This document shows positions 1-22,581 of a DNA stretch of 23,197 nt, one piece after another (position 1 is the stretch's first letter; the number at the start of each line of letters is the position of its first letter). The stretch covers positions 1 to 23,197 of the IMG/VR virus record IMGVR_UViG_3300034093_005439, one strand, 5' to 3'. The notes beneath the pieces are model-generated. The model was not told where the DNA came from and did no database searches. It saw nothing but the letters and a program-made list of their open reading frames with translations. The position numbers were made by a program, and so were the translations under genes. This stretch comes from a virus.

Positions 1-1742
1 GAAAGAACAACTCTATTACCTGCATTATCCTCGACTTTAAAATCGATTGTAACTGCAGCAGCAAGTTTTTTTCTTTGCTCTGATGCAATCTTTGCAAAGT
101 GATCCATTTGATTTCTGCTCCCCGCCATGAAAGGCGTATTTGTTTTTATATTTTTGCTTCTTTCATTAGCAATTCTAATGACACTATCAATACTTATTTG
201 TACTTGAGAATTGTTATTTAAATTATTTTTTAAATCTAAAATATTTTTAGTCAAGTTCAAAATTTTATTGGAAGATGAACTGTTTTGAGAGCTAGCAAAA
301 ACTTCTCTCTTGCCATCTCTTGAAGCCCACACCAAATTGTGAACGCTAGAGGCTAACGCAACACCGCCTCCAACTTGATTGTCTTGATCTCCAGGAAGTG
401 TAAGGTCCATCACTTTTCCTACAGATTCAGTTGGTGCATAATTTGCCAAACCAATATTGGCATTCATTGGAGAAGCTTGTGGTGCTTGTCCTTGTTGCAT
501 ATTTTGAGGTTGATTGATTTGTTGTGGTCTTTGCCCACTACCAACGTCAACACCATCGTCAATCATGTCTTGCATAGTAGATTGAAGTTCTGCCATGGAT
601 TTAGTGATTTTTCCAACGTGTCCTAAATCAACATTATCTTTTCTAGCAAACATATTCATCACAGCAACTTCCAAAAAGTTTAATGATAAATTGATTAAGT
701 CAAGAATATTCAATCCTGATGCTGGATCAATACCAAGAGCTGTCAATACTGCAGAAACGGTTGAGTTTTGATTCGCTCCTGCTCCAGCCAGTAAAGGTCC
801 ACCAACAAGAGTTCCAGCTTGTTGTGCTAATCTAACTGCAGTTTTCGCTGTGAAATTTGCTACACTTAGGCAGTTTTCGTATTCTGCTCTATGTTGAGGA
901 ATAGATGATGTTTCGTGAAGTGCTAAAACAATATTTGAAGAAAGCTCATTTGCTTTCTTTTCTAAATTCATTGCAGCATCTAAAACATCATCAACATCAT
1001 AAATTTCTTGAATTTCACAAGATTCAAAAGCACCATCTCCTACGCAGCTTAATTCAATAAACTTTACGCCGTAGTTCTTTTCATATGATTTTTTGCCAGA
1101 CTCAGGATGTGTTTTTCCTTTGTACTTTTTAAGGTGTTCACAGTAATCTTTTTCAGTGTATGCTTTATTTCCACAAATTGAACAAACACCCCATTCAACA
1201 CTTGCACCCATGGAGACATCATGAATTACACCAGTACGAATATTTCTAGCAATATCAGGATAAGCTTCTTCATCTACAAAGAAAGTACAATATACACAAT
1301 CTTCCTTTTCATCCCATTCTGCATAAACAACCATACCCTTAGCTTGTTCAATATCATCATTTTTGTGGTTTGTGTAAATTGGCACACCTTCAAATGTTTT
1401 ATATGACGGGATTTTTTGACCTTTGATTTCAACTTCCTTGAGAAGTTCTTCTTTTGAAAACAAGTCTCCATTAGCATTTACGACATCAGCGTCAATTGCT
1501 CTAGCTCTTACCCATAAAAGTTTTGCACCTTTACGAGCTTGCATTTCTTTAACAATGTCGAAATCTTTGTATTTTTCGAGTACTTCTTTTGGATCAGCAT
1601 AGAGTGATTGAAGACCAATCTTTGCAGCTTCTCGCATATTTGAAGAAGCAGTCTTTATGATATAATCTCTAGCTATATTTCGGTCATTTTCGTTGAGGAA
1701 GCTATTTATAGTAATAGCCCCTCCTTTTGCAACCTTGTACAT
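1..1742 (-). CDS. Probable capsid maturation (prohead) protease, 3' end cut by window edge
   Basis: The frame is open without a stop from an ATG at 1742 to position 1, so about 580 residues are visible and the C-terminus is missing. The start has a good ribosome site (AAGGA, 8 bases upstream). Residues about 75-185 resemble phage head maturation proteases of the herpes-protease-like (S78/U35-type) fold: a conserved N-A-N-G-D stretch near 89-93, a candidate catalytic His126 in YTNHKND, and candidate Ser177 in DVSMGAS. Directly after this comes a probable zinc site, C187-x2-C190 then C201-x-H203. The later part is helical and low in complexity, with a Gln/Pro-rich stretch, and may be a scaffold-like tail. 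A protease beside a portal is the usual head-gene arrangement, and the major capsid gene may lie just beyond the left edge. The function is inferred from motifs, not proven. Confidence 0.62.
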   Translation of the reverse strand, partial: MYKVAKGGAITINSFLNENDRNIARDYIIKTASSNMREAAKIGLQSLYADPKEVLEKYKDFDIVKEMQARKGAKLLWVRARAIDADVVNANGDLFSKEELLKEVEIKGQKIPSYKTFEGVPIYTNHKNDDIEQAKGMVVYAEWDEKEDCVYCTFFVDEEAYPDIARNIRTGVIHDVSMGASVEWGVCSICGNKAYTEKDYCEHLKKYKGKTHPESGKKSYEKNYGVKFIELSCVGDGAFESCEIQEIYDVDDVLDAAMNLEKKANELSSNIVLALHETSSIPQHRAEYENCLSVANFTAKTAVRLAQQAGTLVGGPLLAGAGANQNSTVSAVLTALGIDPASGLNILDLINLSLNFLEVAVMNMFARKDNVDLGHVGKITKSMAELQSTMQDMIDDGVDVGSGQRPQQINQPQNMQQGQAPQASPMNANIGLANYAPTESVGKVMDLTLPGDQDNQVGGGVALASSVHNLVWASRDGKREVFASSQNSSSSNKILNLTKNILDLKNNLNNNSQVQISIDSVIRIANERSKNIKTNTPFMAGSRNQMDHFAKIASEQRKKLAAAVTIDFKVEDNAGNRVVL

Positions 1743-1867: not shown

Positions 1868-4222
1868 TTATAGATATTCAGAATTACCCTCACCCATACC
1901 TGTTCGCTTCTTAATTACTTTAATTAAAACATTCAAACAATCTTGTGGGTGATCATTAATTTCTTTGTCAGTAAATCTAATTATAATCCAACCATTAGCA
2001 GCTAATTCAGAATCTCTACGCTTGTCTTTAGCGATTTTGTCTGGATTATTGTGCCAAATTTCACCATCAGCTTCAATGCCAATCTTAAGATTAGGAATTG
2101 CAGCATCTAATTGATAATCCATTGCTGGACCAGCAGAATACTGAGCGTAAAGCGGAAAAGGCATATTTAAAGACATAGTCAATCCATAAAGTTTCTTTTC
2201 CAAATTAGTAAACATTTTAGGTTGTTGAGAAATGTCTACTTTCTTTTTTGCGTATTTTTTGATTGATTCATTTTCATTAGAAGCGAATTGATGAATTTGT
2301 TCTAATGCATAGTTGTTCAATGGATGTGAATTATCTCCACCAATAAAGGGGGATTGTAATTGACCATACAATCCATCATATTCATCTGGTAAAGGACCCA
2401 AAGAACCTCTACCTGTTACTGGTGTTAGTGATTTTAAGAAACCTTCATGTGCTGCAGATTTAATTTTCTTGCTTGCAGTTCTTACTCCAGAATTCTTTGC
2501 TTCAATTCTTTCCATATAAATTTCATTAATGGTTGAGCTAGCAACTTTGTAAAATCTGTTCATTACATCTGCAGTAGGAGCAGGAGCACCAGCTGGAGCT
2601 GGAGCTGCAGGAGGCGCCCCACCACCAACAGATAAGTCAGCAGGTGGAGGAGCCATACCTGCACCAGACATATCTGGAGACGAAGCCGCAAAGCCTTGTC
2701 CAGTTACGCCACCACTTTGGAAACTTAATGAAACATTTGGAGTGCCAAAGCTTTGATCATTTACAAAGTTTGCACCTTGTTCAAATCTCAATCTTTCAAT
2801 TTCCTGGTCTGAGTCTAAACCAAAAGCTTCAATAAGAGAAACATTTGAAATAACTCCATTTTGATTTGCAGTGACAAGCATTTGCAATTTACCAGTGTCA
2901 TCACGTAATTGAAGATCGTCAAATTTGATTTTAGGATAGACTATTTCGTCCTGTCCTCTTTCACCTTCGATTACAAAACCATTCCATTTTGCAACTGGCA
3001 TAAAGACATTTTGTTCAATCCAGTGTGCAACTTCTCTTCTAAATGTCTCTAATCTTTGAGCCATTGCAAGAAGTCCAACTTGGGCATTACCGTATGTTGG
3101 TCCCTCACCATTCAAAAGTGCTTTGTTCAACATAACACCATCGAGGATTTCTTGCTCAATTAATTCAAATTCACCAGTAAGAGGATGAATTTTTCCAGTA
3201 GCTCCATACCACTCGAGATCAAAGTTGTGGTGAGTAACAAGTGTTAAGTTAGGATCATTAGCAATAGATGCTAACTCATCTTGGACATTATCAATATCTT
3301 CTTGAGATGCTGGTCTTGTATCACTACCAATTTTTACAACCTTGATTGGTAAGATAAGACGCTCAGCAATCATATATTGAGCTTGTCTTAATTTGTCTTT
3401 GTATGTCAGAATTGGGAACAATGGTCTGATCATAGAAATTCCATAATCTTCCCAAGGATTTGATCCATATTTGAAATGGTGAATAGATATAGTGTTCAGT
3501 TTAATTGGATTACCCTGAACAATCATTTTTTTAATATTGTCAGGAATAGAATCATAAATTTCTTTAGGATGTCGTTCATTGACAATTCTAATTTCTTCTG
3601 CAGATGGACGATATGCATAACTTCCAGGTTGATCAATCATACCTGGACTCTTAATTACAGAATCAGGATTAAGTATAGAAATTGACTTCCAAGTAGCACC
3701 ATCATGTTGACATTCTTGATTTTTGTCTTCATCCCAGTTAGAACCATGGCAATGTGGACAATCTAATGAAAGGAGAACAAAGGAATCACCTAACAAGTGA
3801 TATGTTTTAGAAATTTCTGGTAGCCATTTTTGAAAATTAAGTGATTCTACTAGCTTTTCAAAATAATCTTTTACATAAGAAGAAGAACACTCTAACTTCC
3901 ATCCAGAAAAAGGATAGTTAGTGTAAAAATTGATGGCTGCAGCAATTTTTGGCTCATTGTTTCTCCACCAGTTTGCCCAAAGATAAACTTCACGACGAGC
4001 ATTTGGGATTTGAAAAGATGATGGAGTAAGAAATGGTGAATAGAAGTTAGGAGCTGTAGTAACTGTATTGACGCTTGCAGTTCTTGTTACGCTTGGACCT
4101 AATCCTAGACCAATTCTGCTGCTTGCATAATTTCTGTCTACAGTTGCAGTGGGTGATGATGCTCCTGATACTTGTGTTGCTGCTGTTCGAATAGCAGAAG
4201 CCAATGATGTTCTATTTGCCAT
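1868..4222 (-). CDS. Portal protein fused to a C-terminal Vsr/DUF559-like nuclease domain
   Basis: The protein has 784 residues, long for a phage portal. Residues about 75-490 look like a portal: an N-terminal region near 78-145 with conserved Trp/Asn residues, and a central helical region (about 265-410) typical of portal stems. A possible metal site, CPHC at 155-158 with C171-x-H173, is inserted early. A Pro/Ala/Gly-rich linker (about 505-550) follows. Residues about 669-772 resemble Vsr/DUF559-type PD-(D/E)XK nucleases: E675, D706 (LDAA), E717-A-D719-G, W723-H724, K733 and R735-R736-D737, then GWIIIRFT at 744-751. There is no stop or frame change between the parts. No Shine-Dalgarno precedes the ATG; a TATAAT lies 7 bases before it. 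The portal call rests on overall pattern and context, the nuclease call on specific motifs. Confidence 0.75.
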   Translation of the reverse strand: MANRTSLASAIRTAATQVSGASSPTATVDRNYASSRIGLGLGPSVTRTASVNTVTTAPNFYSPFLTPSSFQIPNARREVYLWANWWRNNEPKIAAAINFYTNYPFSGWKLECSSSYVKDYFEKLVESLNFQKWLPEISKTYHLLGDSFVLLSLDCPHCHGSNWDEDKNQECQHDGATWKSISILNPDSVIKSPGMIDQPGSYAYRPSAEEIRIVNERHPKEIYDSIPDNIKKMIVQGNPIKLNTISIHHFKYGSNPWEDYGISMIRPLFPILTYKDKLRQAQYMIAERLILPIKVVKIGSDTRPASQEDIDNVQDELASIANDPNLTLVTHHNFDLEWYGATGKIHPLTGEFELIEQEILDGVMLNKALLNGEGPTYGNAQVGLLAMAQRLETFRREVAHWIEQNVFMPVAKWNGFVIEGERGQDEIVYPKIKFDDLQLRDDTGKLQMLVTANQNGVISNVSLIEAFGLDSDQEIERLRFEQGANFVNDQSFGTPNVSLSFQSGGVTGQGFAASSPDMSGAGMAPPPADLSVGGGAPPAAPAPAGAPAPTADVMNRFYKVASSTINEIYMERIEAKNSGVRTASKKIKSAAHEGFLKSLTPVTGRGSLGPLPDEYDGLYGQLQSPFIGGDNSHPLNNYALEQIHQFASNENESIKKYAKKKVDISQQPKMFTNLEKKLYGLTMSLNMPFPLYAQYSAGPAMDYQLDAAIPNLKIGIEADGEIWHNNPDKIAKDKRRDSELAANGWIIIRFTDKEINDHPQDCLNVLIKVIKKRTGMGEGNSEYL

Positions 4223-4255: not shown

Positions 4256-4801
4256 TTAATACCAAGTTTGATTAGAAGGTTTGTTGCCGAAAAGAATTGG
4301 ATCTTGTTTGCCTTTAGACGCTTGATAATAACCTTCACCATTCTTGAAATGTTGAAAACTATTTCCTTTTTCAGTTGAAGCCATGCTTTGAGGATCTCTG
4401 TTATTGTTTTCTTGTTGCGAGCCTCTAAGTTGAGTTTCTAATGGTGTATCTTCTGGATTCTCATGAAATGGAGAGTGTCTTCTAGCTTCAGTAGATGCAG
4501 ATTGAGGAGAAATAATATACTGTCCATTATTATCCATATTCATTCTATGAGGACGTTCGACTAAAAGATTCCAGATTTCTTTTTGTTGTTCTTGATTCAT
4601 GCGGTAATATTCATCTAGACTCTTACCCATTTTTTCTAGAATTCCAGAAAGTTCATCATAGAGTCCAGCTGGTTGATTATCTACATCACTTATGCCATCA
4701 ATTCCGAAACCAGACTGACTATCTACCGTATCTTTTGACTCATTTTGTCCTGGGCTAATGACACCACCGCCAAATTGGGACAAAACTTGTTTATACCACA
4801 T
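4256..4801 (-). CDS. Unrecognised hydrophilic protein starting MWYKQ
   Basis: I do not recognise this 181-residue protein. It is rich in Gln, Asn, Glu and Ser, has no membrane segment, and has one likely helical segment at about 45-80. The rest is probably disordered. It begins MWYKQVLSQFGG and ends TWY; the MWY start is shared with the metallopeptidase-like protein at 15555. Its ATG lies inside the end of the preceding gene (11-base overlap), so translation is probably coupled. Its position between a Cys-motif protein and the portal suggests a head, connector or packaged internal protein, but that is inference from location only. Confidence 0.6.
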   Translation of the reverse strand: MWYKQVLSQFGGGVISPGQNESKDTVDSQSGFGIDGISDVDNQPAGLYDELSGILEKMGKSLDEYYRMNQEQQKEIWNLLVERPHRMNMDNNGQYIISPQSASTEARRHSPFHENPEDTPLETQLRGSQQENNNRDPQSMASTEKGNSFQHFKNGEGYYQASKGKQDPILFGNKPSNQTWY

Positions 4802-6443
4802 CGTCGTATTCTTCTCTTTTAGATTCCATGATGTAGTCTAAGCCAAGTTCTTCAGCAAATTTCTTGAGATCATCATCTGAAAATTGATGACCAAAACTGT
4901 CATCATCTTCATCATTTAATAAAGTTTCAATATTGACTTTGATCTTCTTGTTTTCTCTTTTGTCTTCTAATTGATTATCTTTAGGAGTATCAACAACATT
5001 CTTTTTTCTTGTGCTGTTAAGAATTTGTTCTTGGTTGAGTTCTTTCTTTGATGCAGTTTTATCTAATTGATGAATAATAGAATTCTTTGGCTCATCGAAA
5101 TTTTTATTTAACTCATCTCTGTAATTAATGGGATCTTTGCTTTTAACATTTAATTGGTCAGCATAAGATTTTTCCATTTCACCACGATGAGTATAAAGTC
5201 CATCAGAGTCAAGTTGTTCTTCCATTGCTTCGTCAGCTACTGATTCTTTACCATTTAATTTTCTCAACAAAGCTTCAAGATATTCACTGCCCTTTTGTTC
5301 TTTTCTTGGAAGTTGAGAATCAATAGTTTTTAAAGAATCAGATTGAGCTTGCTTAGGGCGCATGACTGGTTTTTCACCTTGTTGATGCCCATAGCTTGAT
5401 TGTTTGGCATCTGACAATTGTTTTTCCATTGAATCATCGACATTTTGCTTGCCTCTGATTTTATTTGCGCCTCTATCTGAGTTGTCAAATCTAGCTTCAA
5501 ATCCAATCTCACCTTCGGTAAGTTTCTTGGATCTTTCACCTTCTTTAAGTTCAAGAGCATTAGCTTCGTTGTCAGGATGCTTATGAACATCTAATCTGGC
5601 CATTACTTCATCATGAGATTGGAATGCGACTTTTAACCAATCTTGATATGCACAAGTTACTTGTCCGTCTTTATCAACTCTTGAGTCAATACAATTTTCA
5701 CGACATTTTGAAACTTCCATAGGCACTGGAGCTTTATAGCCTTGAAATTTTCCTTTAGGACACAGCAAATATGGTTCATTTGCTTGTGTTGAAAGAGTAG
5801 TATATGCAACTCTTCTATTTTCTTTAGGAGTTATTTCTGAGTACCAATTATGCATAAAATTTGCAACTTTTATGGATTTATCTTTATTGCCTGAAAGTAC
5901 AATATTTCTTGCACTGTTTAATTTACTAATTTTGTTATTAGAAGCAAATTTATTTAGCTTATCAATAGCTTTAATAGCTTCAATTTGCCAATAGCCTGAA
6001 GATTGACTATTATTCTTGTAAGCAACTCTTTCCATTTTAGCCGCTTCATTGTTTTTGTTGATAAAATTTTGAATAGCCATATAAGCATAGCGAAGAGTAT
6101 TTCTTTCTTCAGCAAGTCTTATGTTGTTTAATGTATTTAATGCTTTATGCAAATGATGATGTGCTTCTTCTTTTGGAAGAGCTACTATCTTCATAATATG
6201 TTGTGGTCCGCCCATATTCTTAAAGGCAGAAATAACGGGATCATCTCCGAAATCATCCATACCTAAAACATGAAATGGGGAAGACATTGGCATAGAATCC
6301 CCTTCTCCAATACCTGACAAAGTGTCTTGAAGCATGCTAAGTAATCCATTGCCACCGACCAATGGTTTTTTGTCCATAATATCTTGAATTTTTTTAGGAT
6401 CGTGAGTTTCGTATGTAGCTTTGATTTTATATCCCTTGTCCAT
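4791..6443 (-). CDS. Unrecognised head-operon protein with a four-cysteine motif
   Basis: This 550-residue protein has a helical N-terminal half (about 85-200) and then a four-cysteine cluster: C228 (LLCPKG), C247 and C251 (KCRENC) and C264 (VTCAYQDWL). This is a plausible metal-binding or disulfide knuckle. After about residue 320 the sequence is charged and probably disordered. It contains short look-alike segments such as DDSMEKQL (336-343), DEAMEEQL (404-411) and EMEKSYADQL (422-431). The C-terminus is very acidic (DEDDD at 511-515, then SDDD at 522-525). A modest ribosome site (AGGACTGGG) precedes the ATG. Spacing to the upstream gene is 2 bases and the downstream gene overlaps, so it belongs to the head operon. 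I cannot assign a function. Confidence 0.65.
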   Translation of the reverse strand: MDKGYKIKATYETHDPKKIQDIMDKKPLVGGNGLLSMLQDTLSGIGEGDSMPMSSPFHVLGMDDFGDDPVISAFKNMGGPQHIMKIVALPKEEAHHHLHKALNTLNNIRLAEERNTLRYAYMAIQNFINKNNEAAKMERVAYKNNSQSSGYWQIEAIKAIDKLNKFASNNKISKLNSARNIVLSGNKDKSIKVANFMHNWYSEITPKENRRVAYTTLSTQANEPYLLCPKGKFQGYKAPVPMEVSKCRENCIDSRVDKDGQVTCAYQDWLKVAFQSHDEVMARLDVHKHPDNEANALELKEGERSKKLTEGEIGFEARFDNSDRGANKIRGKQNVDDSMEKQLSDAKQSSYGHQQGEKPVMRPKQAQSDSLKTIDSQLPRKEQKGSEYLEALLRKLNGKESVADEAMEEQLDSDGLYTHRGEMEKSYADQLNVKSKDPINYRDELNKNFDEPKNSIIHQLDKTASKKELNQEQILNSTRKKNVVDTPKDNQLEDKRENKKIKVNIETLLNDEDDDSFGHQFSDDDLKKFAEELGLDYIMESKREEYDDVV

Positions 6444-8238: not shown

Positions 8239-9327
8239 TTATTTCTTGTCGTATTTCTTGGTAAAGAGTGCATCAATCCACTCTTGATCACCATAGCCGA
8301 GTTCATTCTTCCAGTAATCAACGATTCTGGAATAGTCTGCGTCTGAAAGTGTTGCAACTTTGATCATTGAAGATGCTGCAGCAACTTTGACATTAGTTTC
8401 AAGACCAGAAGCAAGAACGTCCTTGATATTGGACAACTTATCAACTGCAGGAGCTGATGTTTCGCCTAATCTAGCATTTACATATTCGATTGGAAAACCT
8501 TCGGCAAGAGCTTTAGCAGCAAATGCTTTTCTAGCAGCAGATGAGAATGCTTTAGCTTCTTTCATGTCTGACTTTGCTCCACATTCTTTTTCCATAGCTG
8601 CTTCTTTTTCAACTTCCATATTTGCAGCTACTTTTTGAACTAATGCTTCTCTGTAAGCTCTTCTTTGTGCAAGCTTAACATTAGTTTCTTTGTTGGCTTG
8701 AACTTGGCGCTCAATTTTGCCAGCTAATCTTACTCTTCTGTCATGACGAGCAGCAAGGATAGCATCTTTAAGATCTTCATCACCAGCAGCTACAGCAGCT
8801 TCTACAGCTTCAGCTGATAATTGTGATGCATGGTTAAAATGGTAAGCTTTCTTTTCAGACTTGCCTTTAGGACCTTTTCTCTTCATAGGACCCTTTGCAT
8901 CATCTTCGTCATCTTCGTGGTCTTCATGATCTTCATGATCTTCATGATCTTCATCATCTTCATCATCAGAATCTTTAGACTTCTTCTTACCTTTGCCATT
9001 CTCTTCCATCCACTTAGCTAAACCAGGTGGAATACCTTTCTTGGCCATTTTGGTTGAATTATGATACATTGCGCCATCTTCCATGTCTTCAGACATAGCT
9101 TCAGCATCTTCTTCATCTCCAGCATACATAGTGCCAGATTTTGCTTGCAATCTATCTACTTCTTTATCACCAATAGCATTAAAAAGTTCTTCGAGACCTT
9201 TGGTCTCTTTACCCTCTTTGGCTTCGGCTAATCTTTGGTTAAAGTTGTCCCAATCAATTCCTTGGAAAACCAAGTCAGAATCAAGAGGGTCTTCTTGAAA
9301 TCTGTTTGGGAAAATTCTATCTGCCAT
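8239..9327 (-). CDS. Acidic scaffold-like protein with an HED repeat (tentative)
   Basis: The protein has 362 residues in three parts. Residues 1-110 are mixed and acidic. Residues about 120-142 are an extreme acidic run of D/E with repeated H-E-D. Residues about 165-300 are an Ala/Lys/Glu-rich helical region likely to form coiled coils (for example AVEAAVAAGDEDLKDAILAA), and a compact C-terminus ends DALFTKKYDKK. A charged coiled-coil protein in the head operon, with a strong ribosome site (GAGGAG) and a hairpin after it, fits a scaffold or head-core protein. No sequence motif proves this; a DNA-mimic or internal head protein is also possible. Confidence 0.6.
   Translation of the reverse strand: MADRIFPNRFQEDPLDSDLVFQGIDWDNFNQRLAEAKEGKETKGLEELFNAIGDKEVDRLQAKSGTMYAGDEEDAEAMSEDMEDGAMYHNSTKMAKKGIPPGLAKWMEENGKGKKKSKDSDDEDDEDHEDHEDHEDHEDDEDDAKGPMKRKGPKGKSEKKAYHFNHASQLSAEAVEAAVAAGDEDLKDAILAARHDRRVRLAGKIERQVQANKETNVKLAQRRAYREALVQKVAANMEVEKEAAMEKECGAKSDMKEAKAFSSAARKAFAAKALAEGFPIEYVNARLGETSAPAVDKLSNIKDVLASGLETNVKVAAASSMIKVATLSDADYSRIVDYWKNELGYGDQEWIDALFTKKYDKK
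8903..8965. repeat. Seven 9-bp tandem repeats coding for the acidic HED/DED run
   Basis: Seven consecutive 9-base units on the plus strand follow TCTTC(A/G)T(G/C)(A/G), three of them identical (8921-8947). Read on the minus strand they encode the D-E-D/H-E-D run of the scaffold-like protein. Being a multiple of 3, copy number can change without breaking the frame. Confidence 0.85.
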
Positions 9328-9405: not shown

Positions 9406-9708
9406 TTATGTTTTTTTACTTAAAATTAGTTTGTTGCCCTTCAAGAGCAATTTATCTCCAACACCAATCCCTAATTTTTTAAACAATCCTTTATTTGCTT
9501 CTACAACAAATACAACACTGTTAGAATCTGGACCAACTGACTTTGGATCATCAGCTTCCATATCTTTGATGTCCACAATCTTATGATTTTTATCTAAAAA
9601 AGCTAAAGAAAGCGGGAAAGAAACATTTTTATTCCAAAATGAATAGCTGTCTGGATAATCAAATTCAAAGTAAACTACTTCATATTCATCTAAAGGCTCA
9701 GCATTCAT
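9406..9708 (-). CDS. DUF192-family protein (domain starts upstream of the first ATG)
   Basis: The 100 residues from the first in-frame ATG match most of a DUF192 domain: SFWNKNVSFPLSLAFLD (near 27-43), the hydrophobic strand VVFVVEANKG and the closing LGIGVGDKLLL. DUF192 is a small, mostly beta domain of unsettled function in bacteria and archaea. The ATG is itself the methionine of the conserved G-L-M motif, and the first strand of the domain (EFDVRFVANND) is encoded just upstream in the same frame. The annotated start is therefore almost certainly not the real beginning. Upstream there is no ATG, GTG, TTG, CTG or ATT before the TGA of the preceding gene. Readthrough, an unusual start or a sequence error are the options. 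Confidence 0.75.
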   Translation of the reverse strand: MNAEPLDEYEVVYFEFDYPDSYSFWNKNVSFPLSLAFLDKNHKIVDIKDMEADDPKSVGPDSNSVVFVVEANKGLFKKLGIGVGDKLLLKGNKLILSKKT

Positions 9709-10289: not shown

Positions 10290-10748
10290 TTATCTATTTG
10301 GTATTCTATTTTTCCAAGCATTTCCTTCATCAACATTCTTCTCGTATGTTTCTTCCCAGGAAAATTTATCGCACAAATCTTCTCCACTGTGAATTGCCAT
10401 AGAAGGACTTGATGCTGGATTGCCTGGATCTATATAGGCAGGACCAGGAACATTGTCTGGACCATGCAATAATCCTTCTATATTTGGACCATCAGCTTCT
10501 CCTCCCAAATCAAAATATTCTTTTGGAATTTTTCTTGGGTTGATTTTTTGACGCCAATAATCGTTTTGTTTTGTTTCTTCTTCAATTTCTTCATAAGGAA
10601 CTAAAGAAACATTTGGTGATTGAGTAACTGATTGTTGTGGATAATATTGAGCAATTTTCTCAAACAAATTATCAGCCTTGGAGTAATGGCCTTTTTTGTC
10701 TAGTTTTGAACAGATCTTGATAATTGTTTGTAAAGAAGTTGCGTTCAT
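10290..10748 (-). CDS. Unrecognised protein with N-terminal LDxxGxYxxAD motif
   Basis: The protein has 152 residues. Residues 8-33 form a probable helix pair with LDKKGHYSKAD at 16-26 followed by KIA, closely like residues 5-27 of the protein at 21958-22581. The remainder is Pro/Asn/Asp-rich and probably extended, with a Trp-containing tail (FSWEETYEKN and AWKNRIPNR). A weak ribosome site (AAGAAC) precedes the ATG, and the same AATAAGAACAA-type leader occurs before the next gene upstream. I cannot name its function. The shared N-terminal motif could be a docking or virion-targeting tag. Confidence 0.6.
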   Translation of the reverse strand: MNATSLQTIIKICSKLDKKGHYSKADNLFEKIAQYYPQQSVTQSPNVSLVPYEEIEEETKQNDYWRQKINPRKIPKEYFDLGGEADGPNIEGLLHGPDNVPGPAYIDPGNPASSPSMAIHSGEDLCDKFSWEETYEKNVDEGNAWKNRIPNR

Positions 10749-11809: not shown

Positions 11810-13921
11810 TTATCTTCTGTTTAAATTGACCATTTTTGATCTTGGCAATCTAACCATAATTTTAGATGTAAGACATTCATAACATACAGCAGCCACCGCA
11901 TCACAAATGTCATCTTTATATCCCGATAAAGCTTCAATGTAATATCTTTTACCTTTCCATTTCTTTTGTAAAAATAAAAATTGAATTTTTGCTTCTTGAA
12001 CTTCATTTAAAGATATAATTTTATTGTCTAAATCTCTATATTCTCCACCAGGTAAATCATAAATATCAATTCGATCATCTCTGATTAATTGTGATAATTC
12101 TGTATATATCTTTTCTTTATATTCTTTGTTGAATTGTCTTTCTACAATTGGAATTCTCATAGATTGCAGTTTTATTAAAGATGACTGTGAATTCCATTGA
12201 TCAATAGAAACTTGTTTAAATTTAAATTTAGCGTGTAAGTTGATAACATAGTCTTCAACTTCACTTTCTTTAACAGGTTGATTTTTTGTTCTAGGATTCC
12301 AAAAATGGACATGATCAATCACAACTCTTTTAAGTGGTTGAAAGTCAGGACCAATATGACCATACATGTTTTCAGTATGAGCAATTACAAGAGCGTAATA
12401 GTCTGAAGTTCTAGCTGGATCTAAATGACAAAAATAATCAAAATGACCTTCTGCCATTTCTTTTCTTTTCACCATAGACATAGAAGCAAACATCCTGTCT
12501 ACGTCTTCGGAATTAAACATTGGATCTGATGAAGAAGCTCCAAATTCAGCTCCGTACTGCATTTGAAATTCTTGAGGATCTTTTTTCTTCTGACTATCTA
12601 ACCATTCTTTATCAATATTAGGATTGGTAAGCCAAGTAGGAAGTCTCATCACAAGAGTAGTAGGATCTTCTTGCCTATTCTCGTGTAAATCATAAAGCAA
12701 ACCAAGTGGACCTTTAGGGTTGGAAAGAAGCATCATTTTGCCATCTTTACCAAATGTAGCAAGAGATGGTTTTAGATCATCATAAAGAGCATAGTCAACA
12801 CCAGAGTCAGGATTATCACCTGCCATAGCTGCAACTTCGTCCATAATGATAGTCCAGCAAGTAAGACCAACAAGACCTGATGCATTGCTAGAACCACATC
12901 GTAATACCAAAGAACCTGCAAAAAGATTGATATTATCTGCTTTTCTTCTTACATTCTCTTCTCTATCGTGTTCAGTGTAGAATCGCATTTCAAGCTCAGT
13001 ATCTTTGCCAATATAGGGTGCAAAAAATGGAGAAGCTAGAACAGTTTGCTTAATCTTAGAGAAGATTGCTTTTTTAGCCTGTTCTTCGTTACGAGCAACA
13101 TTTAGAAGAACAACTTCATCAAACTCCATTAAGCCGTATCTTGCTTGAGGATGGCCCATAGAAATCAATCTATACAATTCATAAAGAGCCATAGCAGACA
13201 CAAGGAACGATTTTCCTGAACGTCTACCAAGTACTAAAACTAATTCTTCAAACTTATATCTTTTAGTACATTTTTCTTGAACTTGCATACGAAGCTTTGG
13301 ATCAAATTCTTCTGAATAAAGTAAATCATTTTCACTTTGAAAACCATCAATAATTGGTCTTGTTTCTAATACTATGACTTGTCTTTCAGCATCAGGGTTT
13401 GTTGCTTCTTCTTTGGCATATCTGTATCTTTCTTCTCTAACTTCATTATCAAGACGTTTACACTGTAGGCAAGGGGAATTTACAACATTGAAAATTGTTT
13501 TAAACTGTTTTCCTTCTGATCTGGCTTTTAAAAAATTATTTTCATTTTTTTGAACATAATTCCAAACACAACCTTTGCAGTCTTCTTTATTGTCTGATTC
13601 ATTTATTACAAGATTAGTATTGCCTTCTTGTCCCATATAAAAGCATTTTAGAATTAATTTTTGCCAAGGATAGGGTTTTAAATTACAAAAATAAGGATGT
13701 TCTATAAATGTAATGATATCTACAATTTGATCAGGATTAAATCTATCTTTAGGGGGTTTTGGTGGTGGAGCTACTTCTTGTCTTGTAGCAGGAGCAATTT
13801 CATCAACAAACTCTTCAGCATATTCTGTGTCTTTGAATAATTGTGTTACTGAATTGGCTTGCTGTAATAATTGATTTCTTAATTCGTTAGGAGATTGTTT
13901 TACGGGAGTAGGTTTTCTCAT
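11810..13921 (-). CDS. terL: Terminase large subunit (TerL): packaging ATPase-nuclease
   Basis: This 703-residue protein drives DNA into the prohead by ATP hydrolysis and cuts the concatemer. ATPase motifs are clear: Walker A GRRSGKS at 232-238, Walker B TIIMDE at 357-362 with catalytic E362, and a coupling motif LLSNPKG at 398-404. The C-terminal RNase H-like nuclease shows HLDPA with D501, VSIDQW with D574 and YKDDICDA with D671. Before the ATPase core lies an insertion with C115-x2-C118 and C151-x2-C154, a likely zinc knuckle that is not a standard TerL feature. The ATG overlaps the stop of the upstream gene (TAATG), coupling it to the small-terminase candidate. The length is at the upper end for the family, explained by the insertion and N-terminal extension. 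Confidence 0.93.
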   Translation of the reverse strand: MRKPTPVKQSPNELRNQLLQQANSVTQLFKDTEYAEEFVDEIAPATRQEVAPPPKPPKDRFNPDQIVDIITFIEHPYFCNLKPYPWQKLILKCFYMGQEGNTNLVINESDNKEDCKGCVWNYVQKNENNFLKARSEGKQFKTIFNVVNSPCLQCKRLDNEVREERYRYAKEEATNPDAERQVIVLETRPIIDGFQSENDLLYSEEFDPKLRMQVQEKCTKRYKFEELVLVLGRRSGKSFLVSAMALYELYRLISMGHPQARYGLMEFDEVVLLNVARNEEQAKKAIFSKIKQTVLASPFFAPYIGKDTELEMRFYTEHDREENVRRKADNINLFAGSLVLRCGSSNASGLVGLTCWTIIMDEVAAMAGDNPDSGVDYALYDDLKPSLATFGKDGKMMLLSNPKGPLGLLYDLHENRQEDPTTLVMRLPTWLTNPNIDKEWLDSQKKKDPQEFQMQYGAEFGASSSDPMFNSEDVDRMFASMSMVKRKEMAEGHFDYFCHLDPARTSDYYALVIAHTENMYGHIGPDFQPLKRVVIDHVHFWNPRTKNQPVKESEVEDYVINLHAKFKFKQVSIDQWNSQSSLIKLQSMRIPIVERQFNKEYKEKIYTELSQLIRDDRIDIYDLPGGEYRDLDNKIISLNEVQEAKIQFLFLQKKWKGKRYYIEALSGYKDDICDAVAAVCYECLTSKIMVRLPRSKMVNLNRR

Positions 13922-15554: not shown

Positions 15555-18266
15555 ATGTGGTACTCAAAAATTATCGAATCTGCAACAGCCTGGGACGTTC
15601 TATCTACTAAAGAAGTATCGTGGGCTGGTTCTTTCTCTAGAACTTTCAAAGATTTTTCATTTTACGATCCAAATGATAACCCTACTATGACTGCTATGCT
15701 CAAACTTATAGGAGACTTAGAAAAGGGCAGAACTGGTGATTCAATAATTGACAGATATCTTGAACAAGCGAGAAGTGACCATAATGCACTATCTGATATT
15801 TCAATTTTTTCTTATAATTTATCAAAATTTATTGATAATGAAATGAAAAAACAAGGAAGCTCTGCTAATACAGATATGATGAAAGTATTAGACTTTCTTG
15901 GCAAACTCAATGAATATATAAAATCAAGAGGCGGAAAAGGCATAGAACTTGGTGAACAAATTCCAGATATTGACAAAGTAAAATCATCTGTTAATAGCAC
16001 TCTTGGTATGGGATTTACCACATTGAATTTACTCTTGAAAAAAGGCACGAGTATGAATGAGGCACTAGCTATGTTCATCATCCGTGGAGATGATGTTAAC
16101 TTACTAGGATATCCTCTTTCTGTACAAAGAAACTTGCTTGTTTATCAACTTGTTGAAGCCAGACCAGAATTACAATATTTCCAAAATCAAGAAAGTGTTG
16201 TAAATTTAATTAGACGTGGAGAGGGAACATTCTATTTTCCAAACATTAAAGAATACATTTTTTCAGGTATTGCCGAAAGCAAAATTTTAGAAATTGTTTT
16301 TGAGTTATTATTGAAAGATTTTGATCAACAAAATGTTGCAACGATGCTTCACTATCTTCCAAACAAAACTCAGATTAACGTAGCTGTAAAAATCGATGAA
16401 TATCCACAGTACGATAGATTTTGCCAAAATATAGCAGAAAAGTTATACTCAAGTATAGGTGAGTATGATTTTGATCAAGATGTTTTATTAATAAGAAAAC
16501 TTAAATCTTTCAAAAAATTTATGGAGGTTATTGATAGTAAAGGTGATCAGTGCTCTCCTATATTTATAATCAAGGGAATTGCAAAACCACAAGTCATTAT
16601 AAATTATTTAAATAAAAATCCAGAAGATTATGAAAAATTTGATCCTAATTTATTGGATAGTCTTGGCAGTGAAATTAAAAACCAAATTCAACAAAAAGGC
16701 AAAGCTGCAAAAGCCAGAATTCAGTCTGATGGTTTTGCTCTTTTAGAAAAAGCACAACAAGAAGGCGTAATCAAAATAACTAAAGCTTCTGAAACTGCTT
16801 ATAATTATGCCTTCGGAAAAGGACCAAAAAGAGATCCAGCTCCTCAAGGTATGTCTGAAAGTGGACAAAGGCAAAAAGAAAAGTCTGATGAAATATTTAC
16901 AAAGTTCAAACAGTCATATGAAGATCGTATGCAACAAGAAGCTCCATTTGCTGGCGTAAGTACTGAAGATATAAGTAAATACGCTGAACAAATGATTATT
17001 GTAGAATTTAGCACTTATAGCTTAAAGAATTTTATGCGAGAAAATAATGTGCCTAAATTGAAATTAGGTCCTGTAGATTTTACTGATGAAAAATGGGGTG
17101 GATTATTTGTACCTAAATTTCCAACAAAAGATATGGGTCCACGTCCAGCAATTATTATCAAAACAGATATATGGTCTCAATTAGCTTATCATAGAAAATT
17201 AGCTGAAAATATTGGAATGGATGCTAACCATTATCTTGAAGCCACCAAAAGACACGAAGTTGCTCACGCATTGCAGTATCTTCAATCTGGAGATTTGATG
17301 ATGCAAGATTCTGTTGCTTTAAACCCTGAATTGACTCCTGAAGAAGCTTACATATCTGATCCTTCTGAACTATATGCAAGAATTCACGGAGATATACCTT
17401 ATCTGGCTAAAATCTTTGATGCTCATATTGGAAAATTAATGGCAGATCCAAAAATATATCAAGCTGCTAAAGAACAATGGATTCTAGATATCCAGGATGA
17501 AATGATTCACTTGATGTCAGGTGGAACGAATGCTAAAAGATTACTTGAAGATATGGAGAATGGTAGATTTGGAACTTACACCTCATCTACAGGACAAACA
17601 ATTACATTAACTGATCCTCTTGAAGTAATCAATAAAAAATTACAGCGTCAAAGAAACAGATTGGAAATGATTTTTCACGAGACTTTTCAAATTCAAGGCA
17701 GACGTGATTATAGAAGAGGGTTGATCGGCAAGAAAAATCAATTAGCTCAACAAATTGAATCTACCCCTATTTATTCTTCTGAAAGGACCCAACTCGAAAA
17801 AGAAATAAAAGAAGTTGAAACAAATTTAGTTGAATCAGGAAGAATGCTTATCTTTGATGTAAAAGATGTATCTGAGGCTGTAGTTGAGGGATATTTATCA
17901 GATTATTATAGTAAAATTGCGAAAGCTGTAGCAGATGGTTTACTTACAACAGATAAAATTAATCCTCAAGGCGAAGATCAAAGAGTAGAAAATCAGCAAC
18001 TACGTGAAGAAGCTAAAAAACAAGAACCACCAACAGCGCAAGACATTAAGCAACACGCAAGATTTCAAATTCAACAAACCGAACCTATTCCAAGTGGTAG
18101 AAAGATTGACGTCATTATTCCGAGATATAAAGGACCTGGAAGACCACCTGGCAATTTCCCTGGCTTTGATGATGCAGAAAAAGATGACAGTCAAATTGAT
18201 ATCACTATTGAACGAGACGAAGATAAAACAGCAAGTGTGTTCAATTACAGAAAATTAATCAAATAA
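15555..18266 (+). CDS. Large protein with zinc metallopeptidase (HEVAH) domain
   Basis: This 903-residue protein is the only plus-strand gene. Residues about 490-640 contain the metallopeptidase core: H567-E-V-A-H571 followed by ALQYLQ, and DPSELYAR at 602-609, whose E605 is a good candidate third zinc ligand. This arrangement fits gluzincin-type peptidases. The N-terminal 450 residues are mainly helical and unrecognised. Residues about 690-770 look coiled-coil, with many Gln, Glu and Lys. The C-terminus is Pro-rich, then acidic, ending KTASVFNYRKLIK. It starts MWYSKIIESA, like the MWY protein at 4801. No signal peptide or membrane segment is visible and no Shine-Dalgarno precedes the ATG. 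It may act on host proteins or be packaged in the virion; the substrate is unknown. Confidence 0.75.
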   Translation: MWYSKIIESATAWDVLSTKEVSWAGSFSRTFKDFSFYDPNDNPTMTAMLKLIGDLEKGRTGDSIIDRYLEQARSDHNALSDISIFSYNLSKFIDNEMKKQGSSANTDMMKVLDFLGKLNEYIKSRGGKGIELGEQIPDIDKVKSSVNSTLGMGFTTLNLLLKKGTSMNEALAMFIIRGDDVNLLGYPLSVQRNLLVYQLVEARPELQYFQNQESVVNLIRRGEGTFYFPNIKEYIFSGIAESKILEIVFELLLKDFDQQNVATMLHYLPNKTQINVAVKIDEYPQYDRFCQNIAEKLYSSIGEYDFDQDVLLIRKLKSFKKFMEVIDSKGDQCSPIFIIKGIAKPQVIINYLNKNPEDYEKFDPNLLDSLGSEIKNQIQQKGKAAKARIQSDGFALLEKAQQEGVIKITKASETAYNYAFGKGPKRDPAPQGMSESGQRQKEKSDEIFTKFKQSYEDRMQQEAPFAGVSTEDISKYAEQMIIVEFSTYSLKNFMRENNVPKLKLGPVDFTDEKWGGLFVPKFPTKDMGPRPAIIIKTDIWSQLAYHRKLAENIGMDANHYLEATKRHEVAHALQYLQSGDLMMQDSVALNPELTPEEAYISDPSELYARIHGDIPYLAKIFDAHIGKLMADPKIYQAAKEQWILDIQDEMIHLMSGGTNAKRLLEDMENGRFGTYTSSTGQTITLTDPLEVINKKLQRQRNRLEMIFHETFQIQGRRDYRRGLIGKKNQLAQQIESTPIYSSERTQLEKEIKEVETNLVESGRMLIFDVKDVSEAVVEGYLSDYYSKIAKAVADGLLTTDKINPQGEDQRVENQQLREEAKKQEPPTAQDIKQHARFQIQQTEPIPSGRKIDVIIPRYKGPGRPPGNFPGFDDAEKDDSQIDITIERDEDKTASVFNYRKLIK

Positions 18267-18821
18267 GAAATCTTCACCAAGAATTAGTTTCATTTGTTCA
18301 AGGGCTTTTGATAATCTTTTTGAGAAAGCCCCTTGAGTGATACCTAGAGTTTCAGCACATTCTTTTTGATCTAATCCATCAAAGAAATAAACTTGGATTA
18401 CTTCTCTGCTTTTTTCGTTCAATTTATCCATAGCTTGATGGATACAGATTGCATTGTCAATATCATTAAATGGATCTTCAGATTCTTCAGGAAAATAATC
18501 TTCGTCTGAAAGTTCTTCTTTTGGAAAATATTTATCAGCTGTGTATCTAAATAAATTGATATCTATTCTTGTTGATAAGAAATAAGAAAAATAAGATAAT
18601 TTTGGATCATATTGATCAATTAGTTTACGTAAAACAAAAATACAATCACTTAAAATATCTTCTCTGTGTGATGAAAGCCGAGATTCTTTTTGGATAATTC
18701 TTTTAACAGATGAGATGAAAAGAGGTTTGTAAAATTCATATAAATCAAAAAGCGCAGTATCATCTCCAGCTTTGTATTTATATAAAAGCTTATTTATCTC
18801 ATCATAATTATTATCAGCCAT
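18255..18821 (-). CDS. ECF-like sigma-70 family factor
   Basis: From ATG at 18821 the protein has 188 residues; a longer TTG start at 18842 lacks any ribosome site. Residues about 20-90 match sigma region 2: an acidic helix leading to REDILSDC and a region-2.3-like stretch DPKLSYFSYFLSTRI. Residues about 125-180 match region 4, a helix-turn-helix: REVIQVYFFDGLDQKECAETLGITQGAFSKRLSKAL, read here as two helices. Region 3 is absent, replaced by an acidic linker, as in ECF-type sigma factors. It would direct RNA polymerase to phage or host promoters. It is the last gene of the replication operon, and its stop overlaps the convergent gene by 12 bases. No Shine-Dalgarno; TATAAT lies 6 bases before the ATG. 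Confidence 0.82.
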   Translation of the reverse strand: MADNNYDEINKLLYKYKAGDDTALFDLYEFYKPLFISSVKRIIQKESRLSSHREDILSDCIFVLRKLIDQYDPKLSYFSYFLSTRIDINLFRYTADKYFPKEELSDEDYFPEESEDPFNDIDNAICIHQAMDKLNEKSREVIQVYFFDGLDQKECAETLGITQGAFSKRLSKALEQMKLILGEDFLFD

Positions 18822-18827
18822 AAAAAG

Positions 18828-18833
18828 ATTATA
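18828..18833 (-). promoter_or_regulatory. TATAAT box placed for a leaderless sigma-factor mRNA
   Basis: TATAAT on the minus strand overlaps the stop of the clamp-loader gene and lies 6 bases before the sigma-factor ATG, which has no Shine-Dalgarno. It could let the sigma gene be transcribed apart from the operon. Confidence 0.3.
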
Positions 18834-19830
18834 CAGAGGCAAGTTTTGAAATTAATATTGGCACTGAATGATTTACTGAGCCATTAGTACGTAAATCAAC
18901 TATAGTATCAACTACTAATGTAATCATTTTTGAAAACTGTGCTGGACTATATAAATTTTCTTTGCTAGATTGTATGCGAATTCTTATAGGATTTTGAGCT
19001 TTTACTGTGAATGTAGGCTCTTTGTATTCATCGTCCAGATACTTGCCTAAAAGATCTCTTAATTCAACTATTTCTTGAACTTCAGTAAGAGGATGATATT
19101 TCTTATTAGTCTCTGAAATTACAAGCATAAAGTTTAATTGGCTAAGTAAAACAAGTAAAAATCCTTGTTCTCCCATAGAGTCAATTAGTAGCTCAATCTT
19201 TGTTAAACAGTAATCCATATTTTTGTTCATCAGTTGTTCGATAAATTCGAATATGTCGCATTCTTCATTGAAAGAAGCATTTTGTATGTCACGCAAAAAT
19301 ATTTTATCTGTGTAAGAAATAATCTTTTCTAATTCCTTGAAAAGAATATCAATATCATAACAGATAATTTCTTTCTTGCTTCCAGATTGTTTTGATTTGA
19401 TACGTAGGACAGGGCAAATTTCAACAAGACTATTCAAAGTTTCTCCATTGATATTTGCATTGTTCTTCATTACATAATTGTTGATATGACGTTTCAGAGC
19501 ATTGAAATCCCCAACAAGTGGATAGCTACAATCGAAAATTAAGTTGTTTTTCTTGGCCTTTGCAATTAGAGATAAACGACCATCAAAACTATCATCATCG
19601 TACAGTATAACGTGTTTGCTGCCTAACTTATCACTCTTTTCCTGAATGAGTTTAATATCTTCATTAGAAATGCTAGTGTGAATATAGACGTTATTATTGT
19701 CAAAGAATTTGGAATAACTATTAATTATCTTTTCAACATTATTATCAATAAGAAGAATAAGACCAGGGAATTCTTCCTTGATCTTATTCAATGCTAGTGT
19801 AGTTGATCCGTAATAAATTCTTGGAAACAT
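18829..19830 (-). CDS. Clamp-loader delta subunit-like protein (HolA family)
   Basis: I start at ATG 19830, one base after the clamp stop codon, rather than at TTG 19875, which lies inside the clamp gene. This gives 333 residues, the usual HolA size. The N-terminus MFPRIYYGSTTLALNKIKEEF recalls the delta opening strand. As in HolA no Walker A is present, since delta is a degenerate AAA+ protein. The best match is the third domain, about residues 195-245: DIFEFIEQLMNKN, then ALxxL-like CLTKIELLIDSMGEQ and LLVLLSQLNFML, read as the delta collar helices. Delta opens the sliding clamp for loading onto DNA, and the clamp is the adjacent gene. No other loader subunits are visible, so host ones may complete the complex. 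Confidence 0.6.
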   Translation of the reverse strand: MFPRIYYGSTTLALNKIKEEFPGLILLIDNNVEKIINSYSKFFDNNNVYIHTSISNEDIKLIQEKSDKLGSKHVILYDDDSFDGRLSLIAKAKKNNLIFDCSYPLVGDFNALKRHINNYVMKNNANINGETLNSLVEICPVLRIKSKQSGSKKEIICYDIDILFKELEKIISYTDKIFLRDIQNASFNEECDIFEFIEQLMNKNMDYCLTKIELLIDSMGEQGFLLVLLSQLNFMLVISETNKKYHPLTEVQEIVELRDLLGKYLDDEYKEPTFTVKAQNPIRIRIQSSKENLYSPAQFSKMITLVVDTIVDLRTNGSVNHSVPILISKLASV

Positions 19831-19831
19831 A

Positions 19832-20929
19832 TTAATCCATTGGGAAAAGAATATGCTTGAAATTTTCTGCTTCAAGCATCAATAAAATAAAGTCATTATG
19901 TTTTATGAAATTGAGTTTCAATTTCTTACTATCAAGTAAATCTAAAACTCTAATTAAATGAGAAGAAACGTAAGACACTGATAAAACTTCATAATTTTCA
20001 ATTTCAATAGTGTCAACAACTGCATTTTTCTCATTACTGTTTGCAGATATAACAAGTTTATTTATATCTAGAGTCAAGCTTATCATGTGAGAATTTGCAA
20101 TGCTAGATACAAACTTTACACTCTTGACTAATGAATCTTTTTGTAATTCAAGAGTTAAGAAAAATTGATCGCTAAAGAATTGATTGAAGTTTGAAAAGAT
20201 CTTTTCGTAAGTGTTTTTCTCAAGGCTGCAAGATAATTCTCCACCATCCCAAGTCAGATAAATTTTACTATTATAAAGAGAGAAAGTAATGCCTGGTATT
20301 TTTTCAATATAGTAAAGTATTACATCTGAAATTGTTTTAGAAAATAAATAAGATTGTTGTAATTCGTATTTCTTGCCAAAAACAGAAATTCTATGTTTGT
20401 CTGAAGATTGAGCATTTATTTTTCCATCTTCAATAAACCAAAGTATAGAAGTGTATGGATGCTCATCAAAATCAGGAGCACAAGAGAAAGAAGTCATCTT
20501 CATACTGTGGACAAAATCATCAACAGTAACATCTAATGGTTCTAAATCTTCAGAAAAACTAATAGTAAAATTATCAACAGGAACAGTTGCCAAAGATACT
20601 CTAGTTTTCTTATTTCCAAAGATAAGTAAATTTTCTTCAAAATTGTAAATAAACTGAATTTCTTCTGTCGGGAAATTATTCAAGGCATTAAAAAAAGAAG
20701 ATACATCTAAACCAAAAGTTCCATCTTCTGTAGGCTGTACATTCTTAAGCAAAAACTTTGAACCACAAAAATTGTTTTCTGATTGGACATAAAGTTTTCC
20801 ATCAACTGCATGAAAAATAAGACTACTCGATGCAGCTTTATTTTCACGCATAGAAAGTTTAGATTTTTCAATTTTATTAAGTAAGGCAAAACAAATAAGA
20901 TGTTCTGCCTTGTTCAACTTAAATTTCAA
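19832..20929 (-). CDS. dnaN: DNA polymerase III beta-type sliding clamp
   Basis: The length of 365 residues equals that of bacterial beta clamps (366 in E. coli). Alternating strand/helix pattern runs through three similar domains; SDKHRISVFGKK near 178-189 matches the family's conserved S/T-D-x-H-R-L segment, and the C-terminus HILFPMD parallels the bacterial ending VVMPM. The clamp forms a ring that tethers DNA polymerase to the template. The start is TTG at 20929, with AAGGA 8 bases upstream, overlapping the TGA of the PurA-family gene (TTGA), so the two are translationally coupled. The delta-like loader follows one base after its stop. The sequence is divergent from host clamps, as expected of a phage copy. 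Confidence 0.82.
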   Translation of the reverse strand: MKFKLNKAEHLICFALLNKIEKSKLSMRENKAASSSLIFHAVDGKLYVQSENNFCGSKFLLKNVQPTEDGTFGLDVSSFFNALNNFPTEEIQFIYNFEENLLIFGNKKTRVSLATVPVDNFTISFSEDLEPLDVTVDDFVHSMKMTSFSCAPDFDEHPYTSILWFIEDGKINAQSSDKHRISVFGKKYELQQSYLFSKTISDVILYYIEKIPGITFSLYNSKIYLTWDGGELSCSLEKNTYEKIFSNFNQFFSDQFFLTLELQKDSLVKSVKFVSSIANSHMISLTLDINKLVISANSNEKNAVVDTIEIENYEVLSVSYVSSHLIRVLDLLDSKKLKLNFIKHNDFILLMLEAENFKHILFPMD

Positions 20930-21921: not shown

Positions 21922-21957
21922 ATGCACATTTTACTTCATTGTATAGGTGTTGGCAAG

Positions 21958-22581
21958 TTATAATTCTATGTCTTTTTCTTCGTCAAAAAATTCTCTATCA
22001 TCAATACCATTTACAACAACATCAACGTGCGTGTCTGGGAATTTTTGTCGAACTTTTTCCATTGCTTCTTCTTTACTGTAATCTTCAAGAGCAAGATTAG
22101 ATGTGAAAACTACATCGTGAGAAATTTCTTCTGCATCTTCTTCCTCACCATATAAATTTTCTAATCCAGGTATGGAAAGTTGATCTGTTAGGAGCTTTCC
22201 TTCTTTGTCAGAACCTTTAGATAATGATTTCAATGACAAAGGATCTAAAAAGAAAAATTTCCATACTCCACTTTCTGGAAATAAAATAATTTGTGGATAA
22301 ATTGCAAAATGCCTTCTTGTTCCTTTAGATCTTTCAACAAGTTGCTCCATAGGGTCTCTCGATGGATCTACAGTGAACTTTTCATCTCCAAGAACTTCTA
22401 CAATATCTCTGCCTTGCTTTCTTGCTTTAGTTAATGCAAAATCAGAATATGTTTCTGGATTTTTGTAAACTTCATCAAAATCTAAATCTGATTGATCTAT
22501 TGCTACTTTGGTAAATCTGTCAGCCAGTTTAAAGCATCCCAAGGTATCCAAAATAGAGGCAGTTCTAAGTAAATTTATCAT
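21958..22581 (-). CDS. Unrecognised protein with N-terminal LDxxGxFxxAD motif
   Basis: The protein has 207 residues, with AAGG shortly before an ATG that overlaps the TGA of the sigma gene (ATGA). Residues 5-27 (LLRTASILDTLGCFKLAD and a following KVA) resemble the N-terminus of the head-operon protein at 10290-10748. The middle is a mixed alpha/beta stretch: RRHFAIYPQIILFPESGVWKFFFLDPLSL near 90-118, read as strands. The C-terminal half is acidic, with EEEDAEE and the ending FFDEEKDIEL, and contains a possible small alpha/beta fold (EEAMEKVRQKFPDTHVDVVVNG, in two elements). The family is not recognised. It sits between a sigma factor and the PurA-family gene. Confidence 0.62.
   Translation of the reverse strand: MINLLRTASILDTLGCFKLADRFTKVAIDQSDLDFDEVYKNPETYSDFALTKARKQGRDIVEVLGDEKFTVDPSRDPMEQLVERSKGTRRHFAIYPQIILFPESGVWKFFFLDPLSLKSLSKGSDKEGKLLTDQLSIPGLENLYGEEEDAEEISHDVVFTSNLALEDYSKEEAMEKVRQKFPDTHVDVVVNGIDDREFFDEEKDIEL

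Follow-up and report, generated by a model that had tools for sequence, protein, structure and literature searches.

A portal gene with a nuclease tail

The DNA analysed here (the window) is a stretch of 23,197 nucleotides, positions 1 to 23,197 of virus record IMGVR_UViG_3300034093_005439. Positions 1868–4222 of its minus strand hold 784 codons without a break, in which a phage portal protein is fused to a nuclease. An earlier sequence-only reading had proposed a portal-like body joined to a nuclease in one unbroken frame, and this proposal is upheld by the 784 open codons together with the portal profiles and fold described below. The anatomy, in which a portal is joined to an EDxHD nuclease that retains its full set of active-site residues, is regarded as very nearly certain. 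The features of the gene and its main neighbours are as follows.

1868–4222, minus strand: fused portal–nuclease gene, 784 aa, single open frame
4046–4222, minus strand: N-terminal tail, residues 1–59; low model confidence (pLDDT under 50 over residues 1–69)
2753–4045, minus strand: portal body, residues 60–490 (PHROG 16240, Portal_Mu, Foldseek, VIA)
3704–3760, minus strand: putative zinc-binding insert in the portal body, residues 155–173 (C155-x2-C158 ... C171-x-H173)
2579–2752, minus strand: Pro/Ala/Gly-rich linker, residues 491–548 (composition, low pLDDT, dN/dS 0.16)
2219–2578, minus strand: semi-conserved segment between linker and nuclease, residues 549–668; holds KVAS at 559–562 and RTAS at 581–584
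1898–2218, minus strand: EDxHD/Vsr-type nuclease domain, residues 669–775 (profiles, predicted structure, conservation)
2198–2200, minus strand: E675 codon, aligned to Vsr E25; 82/82
2105–2107, minus strand: D706 codon, aligned to Vsr D51; 82/82
2051–2053, minus strand: H724 codon, aligned to Vsr H69; 82/82
2024–2026, minus strand: D733 codon, aligned to Vsr D97; 82/82
3–1742, minus strand: head maturation protease gene, adjoining the portal gene and cut by the window end (PHROG 18299, E 4.1e-21)
11810–13921, minus strand: terminase large subunit (TerL), ATPase and nuclease motifs intact (profile matches)

The portal gene sits in a packaging and head cluster, with the protease alongside and TerL in the same gene run, and in the related locus L045 the gene for the major head protein lies downstream. 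The head maturation protease frame of that locus (L045:12457–16617, stop-to-stop) extends over 1387 codons, with protease similarity only near residues 60–250 and CxxC pairs near its end. The remaining genes of the window include a sliding clamp, two sigma-70-like proteins (18255–18842 and 22578–23195, minus strand) and several genes without a family match. There is also an adenylosuccinate synthetase-like gene (20926–21927, minus strand), whose product is short at 333 aa and does not reach the curated cut-off of any of the six listed NCBIfam models, which include PurZ. A DUF192 (COG1430) protein is encoded among the head genes (9406–9708, minus strand, E 3e-17), and the proteins of 10290–10748 and 21958–22581 (minus strand) have a common N-terminal stretch, LD-x2-G-x4-5-AD, but are otherwise different.

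Portal body and nuclease domain

The body of the protein matches the PHROG 16240 portal over residues 51–420 (E 7.3e-32) and Portal_Mu over residues 234–467 (E 9.2e-8, 32.2 bits against a cut-off of 23.9). Foldseek with the portal model returned a portal at E 1.5e-10, and the 50 matches listed by VIA for the full-length model (Z 15.5–19.3) are portal, neck, connector or particle entries, this model being weaker than that of the nuclease (pLDDT 66.8, pTM 0.45) and lowest in confidence in the N-terminal tail and linker. Residues 70–471 of the model superpose on residues 46–426 of the G20C portal (VIA, Z 18.5, rmsd 9.1, 341 aligned), and therefore the chain that follows the body departs from the crown. 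In solved portals, the crown faces the head interior. The body also contains a CxxC ... CxH insert, and the residues C155, C158, C171 and H173 are invariant in 28/28 aligned fusion-bearing rows and likewise in a five-row set of portal bodies, a pattern suggestive of zinc binding.

Long in-frame inserts that resemble inteins, one or more per gene and at several sites, are present in portal genes of deeper relatives (L207, L209, L210, L212, L213, L229, L236, L268, L269, L271 and L311). Eight of these insert-bearing portals were scanned. Five have a LAGLIDADG domain (L207, L212, L213, L229 and L268), L271 has Hint and intein-splicing matches, L236 has a weak intein-splicing match below the cut-off, and L209 has none. 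The Vsr-type nuclease is located in the portal tail, outside the inteins.

The nuclease hallmarks that had been pointed out at 1907–2218, equivalent to residues 669–772, are all present (LDAA, IEADG, WH, KDKRRD and GWIIIRFT). These motifs are not a product of chance, since the segment is matched by two Pfam profiles, DUF559 (PF04480; residues 701–770, E 8.7e-7, 29.2 bits against a cut-off of 20.6) and MTES_1575 (PF18741; E 4.6e-9). The latter scores 36.7 bits with the whole protein, just below its cut-off of 38.2, and 39.8 bits, above the cut-off, with the nuclease domain alone. Both families are matched at E 0.01 or better by 32/32 members. The AlphaFold2 model of the nuclease, built from 32 aligned sequences, has a pLDDT of 82 and the order helix, three strands, helix, strand, which is the alpha-beta-beta-beta-alpha-beta fold. 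The top Foldseek match in the PDB is the homing endonuclease I-Bth0305I (E 1.3e-4), while by profile the domain is closest to the putative endonuclease 3hrl, with I-Bth0305I second. Superposition with VIA gives Z 13.4 for 3hrl (rmsd 1.8, 93 aligned), Z 13.2 for I-Bth0305I (3r3p; rmsd 2.2, 96 aligned) and Z 9.8 for Vsr (1vsr; rmsd 2.5, 98 aligned).

Profile alignment with E. coli Vsr by hhalign (E 1.6e-5, probability 79) places E675, D706, H724 and D733 on Vsr E25, D51, H69 and D97, giving the EDxHD pattern. Vsr E25 and D97 have roles in the active site. The pairing of Vsr D51 with H69 is described in the available text of PMC11879112. In contrast, the position of Vsr H64 is occupied by an Asp in the fused nuclease. 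From its sequence, the domain would be expected to act as a metal-dependent nuclease.

The assignment of the domain to the Vsr/DUF559 PD-(D/E)XK nucleases is thus borne out by profiles, by predicted structure and fold search, and by conservation in relatives; separate structural searches with the two parts gave a PD-(D/E)XK-type match for the C-terminal domain and a portal fold for the N-terminal part. Two details of the sequence-only reading need amendment. The Pro/Ala/Gly linker is present (about 491–548) but does not lead directly to the nuclease, as the semi-conserved segment 549–668 intervenes. Similarly, D706 and E717, which had been singled out as key acids, are both invariant, but the active-site set is wider and comprises E675, D706, H724 and D733 in addition to E717.

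Conservation, distribution and relation to phage G

An initial search recovered 68 loci. A further query (A6) was built from portal bodies alone, so that nuclease-biased recovery was avoided; it recovered 145 relatives, and the analysis covered the best 80 of them. The fusion proved to be common to related phages: the nuclease follows in the same frame in 75 of these best 80 of 145 relatives (66 distinct frames), and in the remaining five the frame runs off the contig end. No alternative C-terminal domain replaces the nuclease in the 75 complete genes. Ten residues (E675, D706, E717, G720, H724, D733, R736, D737, W745 and R749) are identical in 82/82 distinct nuclease segments from all loci, and D719 is kept in 81/82. 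One alignment has 53 rows that reach residue 770 and includes the window's protein under several ids.

The nuclease and the portal body are similarly constrained, with dN/dS values of 0.032 and 0.033, respectively, while the three stretches between them have values of 0.12–0.21 (Nei–Gojobori with Jukes–Cantor; 20 non-independent pairs out of 325 from 26 sequences, pairs outside the chosen synonymous-divergence range having been left out). Pairwise distances of portal and nuclease are strongly correlated (r 0.946, 82 genes, restricted to frames over 650 aa), and 0/999 permutations gave a value as high. The nuclease is therefore under purifying selection, is inherited with the portal and is present throughout the sampled clade. 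The retention of the active-site residues across the group suggests that the domain has a standing role in the handling of virus DNA. Around residues 660–690 there is no drop in synonymous diversity of the kind that an internal start freeing the nuclease might give.

A split or frameshift artefact was considered as a general explanation of the fusion and rejected, as the portal is also present in 284/287 nuclease-bearing frames, a redundant set obtained in part by nuclease query. The three exceptions (L059, L129 and L205) are one contig, IMGVR_UViG_3300012000_000088, which lies outside the best 80. In this contig an in-frame TGA in the linker (L059:11681–11683) parts the portal from the nuclease; the close relative L227 has no TGA at that site. 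Among 27 same-strand gene alignments of the contig with two relatives there is no other mid-gene stop, and the few other stops fall within the first 20 columns, before likely starts. The linker TGA may be an assembly error, a real split or a site of readthrough.

The fusion is present in 11 records of 255–494 kb, two pairs among them, with matching portals, being possible near-copies. DUF559 lies within the portal in 11/11 of these large records and is the sole copy over the cut-off in 9/11; the clade's own nuclease profile gave one additional weak match (E 0.005), in one record. In a portal tree of 37 rows, one change is enough to set the 30 rows with the nuclease apart from the seven that lack it (SH-aLRT 99), and the same holds for a larger tree (82 with the nuclease, five without), although part of the rows had been recovered by way of the nuclease, and long branches, chiefly that of L236, come together close to this fork. 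Both portal trees fit a single origin of the fusion.

The closest isolate is Bacillus phage G, whose portal (gp14) shares 28.4% identity with that of the window and 30.3% and 35.5% with those of two deeper members; the major head protein of L045 shares 47.7% identity with that of phage G. The phage G portal has a Pro/Gly-rich tail end, as in the fused portals, but no nuclease follows the tail, and the zinc-like insert is absent, appearing as a gap in the phage G row of the portal alignment. The nuclease profile has no match in the phage G genome. Among 12 outgroup records there is a nuclease match in one, as a separate 346-codon frame. In the isolate collection, 0/248, 0/215 and 0/215 matching records cover 80% of the three query portals. 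Relatives of the nuclease itself occur in 69 records of isolated phages, and none of the 30 matches listed of these 69 is named portal. Those 30 are named as helicase, endonuclease, DUF559 or repair endonuclease, homing endonuclease or hypothetical protein, with one lacking annotation. One scan of bacterial genomes (query A5) found no relatives. The fusion-bearing phages are an uncultured giant-phage group related to Bacillus phage G, and the fusion provides a one-gene marker for the uncultured group around this phage.

Possible roles of the nuclease and comparison with known systems

We tentatively favour a fixed role for the nuclease in DNA processing at the portal, either while packaging is under way or as it ends, to which we give somewhat less than an even chance. 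In the proposed mechanism, the gene would encode the portal of a giant phage resembling phage G, and a flexible tether would join a metal-dependent nuclease of Vsr/EDxHD type to the C-terminal side of every subunit in the ring, placing up to twelve nuclease domains on the lumen side, at the point of DNA entry and exit. The lumen side is proposed because the portal fold ends in the crown, and by the structural model this location is probably correct. The nuclease, if active, would then trim, nick or debranch DNA in the manner of T4 gp4, which acts in head completion, or of the portal-bound gp49, its substrate and timing being presumed. With a nuclease in the lumen, the packaged genome would be at risk unless the enzyme were restrained, specific or timed.

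Two further lines of evidence bear on this DNA-processing role. The suggestion that the domain assists TerL, in the sense of replacing the TerL nuclease, can be set aside for near relatives: D501, D507, D574, D670, D671 and D674 are conserved in 32/32 distinct TerL copies (at least 49% identity), so TerL is not being replaced and no missing activity demands a replacement. Profiles of T4 gp4, including PF08722, have no match in the 11 large records, which may be incomplete, although the same profiles are positive in T4. The absence of gp4 alone does not show that the fused nuclease substitutes for it, since Bacillus phage G, in which gp4 was likewise not detected, lacks the fusion as well.

An injected effector is the strongest of the alternatives, although we consider it unlikely. 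Here the neighbouring prohead protease would free the tail of the portal, and the nuclease would ride free in the head and enter the cell with the DNA to cut that of the host, a plasmid or a rival phage. Fusions of portal and MuF proteins to RNase, 2H, InPase and Nudix domains are proposed as injected effectors in the available portions of PMC5512222 and PMC9503650, and the gene for the head maturation protease adjoins that of the portal. Furthermore, the motif [KR]xAS occurs before the nuclease in 52/91 distinct frames (94 seen compared to 8.3 in shuffles that ignore kinship). This motif is not a proven cleavage site, however, because it is missing from the linkers of deeper clades and is enriched in the portal body too (70 seen compared to 13.8, again in shuffles that ignore kinship); additionally, no copy is present in the L045 major head protein. 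A wider pattern, [KR][TIVLFYMQ]A[SATEQRKN], is seen 43 times compared to 11.6 in shuffles over 21 window genes, the enrichment being mostly in genes near the portal, with examples in the head genes at 3–1742, 1868–4222, 4791–6443 and 8239–9327; judged as a sequence pattern, it is a possible processing signal. Also against an effector is that 75/75 complete genes have the same nuclease, which is not swapped for other domains and is as constrained as the portal. That each complete gene has the domain, under such constraint, is easier to reconcile with a fixed step in virion assembly than with a toxin module, since the C-terminal domains of MuF toxins are diverse, as described in the accessible text of PMC5576092. 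The evidence favours the fixed DNA-processing role over both a swappable toxin and a mobile homing enzyme.

The two readings that follow are each improbable. In the first, the tethered nuclease would serve as a packaging checkpoint that cuts DNA lacking a putative phage modification at the portal, so that host or rival DNA is kept out and the phage genome is spared. Such a checkpoint would explain how a nuclease in the lumen is tolerated. In addition, the window and 6/11 large records contain an adenylosuccinate synthetase-like gene, and PurZ, known from diaminopurine phages, belongs to the same superfamily. However, with 116 bits this gene falls well short of the 300 bits required by the curated PurZ model, and 5/11 of the fusion-bearing large records have no synthetase-like match. 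In the second, of comparably low probability, a domain of nuclease fold would bind DNA without cutting it and act as a clamp or as a sensor for a full head. There is precedent for a Vsr-fold protein without nuclease activity in FASTKD4, but according to the available text of PMC11879112 the histidine of Vsr is replaced by Asn in this protein, whereas the four EDxHD residues of the fused domain are invariant (82/82).

It is very improbable that a homing endonuclease was fused to the portal gene and is still driving its own spread: the top Foldseek match is the homing enzyme I-Bth0305I and inteins do hit portal genes of this clade, but the active homing enzyme once suggested is not supported, since the domain is missing from no complete gene of the portal-only query (75/75), tracks the portal in inheritance, needs only one origin and is selected as the portal is. 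It is also separate from the inteins, being at the end of a structural gene, and 5/8 of the insert-bearing portals scanned have a LAGLIDADG domain belonging to the insert itself.

Portals are usually viewed as channels or pressure sensors. A bolder form of the DNA-processing reading holds that the portal itself is an active DNA-processing enzyme, in which a lumen ring of tethered nucleases would be obligatory for packaging or ejection and would do the work of T4 gp4 and gp49; we consider this form a real possibility, though short of probable. If true, a whole lineage would share a portal with a fixed enzymatic activity, and the inner side of the packaging channel would be a place where DNA can be cut, making the survival of the genome beside a nuclease a direct question. 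It would also offer a handle on how phages of 300–500 kb end packaging, clear branched DNA and deal with foreign DNA.

Several known systems share features with the fused nuclease. T4 gp49 (endonuclease VII) is stationed at the portal gp20, as the fused nuclease is at its portal, but it is a separate protein, and its nuclease fold differs from that of the fused domain. The association of gp49 with the portal is reported in the available part of PMC3012670. T4 gp4, a TnsA-like head-completion nuclease, has a restriction fold, as does the fused nuclease, and its DNase activity is required for packaging according to the accessible text of PMC7824862; it too is a separate protein, with no detectable sequence relation to the fused nuclease (hhalign probability 0.1), and PF08722 (TnsA-like) has no match in the fused protein at E 0.1. 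The predicted fold is common to Vsr and I-Bth0305I. In contrast to these enzymes, the fused nuclease is tethered to a portal, with no mismatch-repair partner or homing context seen. At E 0.1 no Pfam DNA-recognition domain of homing type was matched in the fused protein, in which the segment 549–668 is not assigned to any family.

Parallels in architecture are the polyvalent portal and MuF fusions (PBECR RNase, 2H, InPase and Nudix), in which a catalytic domain is carried on the portal, as the predicted nuclease is here. Catalytic domains on portals are thus already known as a kind from the available text of PMC5512222 and PMC9503650, in which no restriction-fold DNase on a portal is named. In the part of the open-access literature that was searched, no report was found of a Vsr/EDxHD or other restriction-fold DNase on a portal. 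Unlike the swappable C-terminal domains of the polyvalent and MuF effectors, the nuclease described here is one domain type fixed across a clade, and the novelty would be greater still should DNA cutting by the portal turn out to be obligatory.
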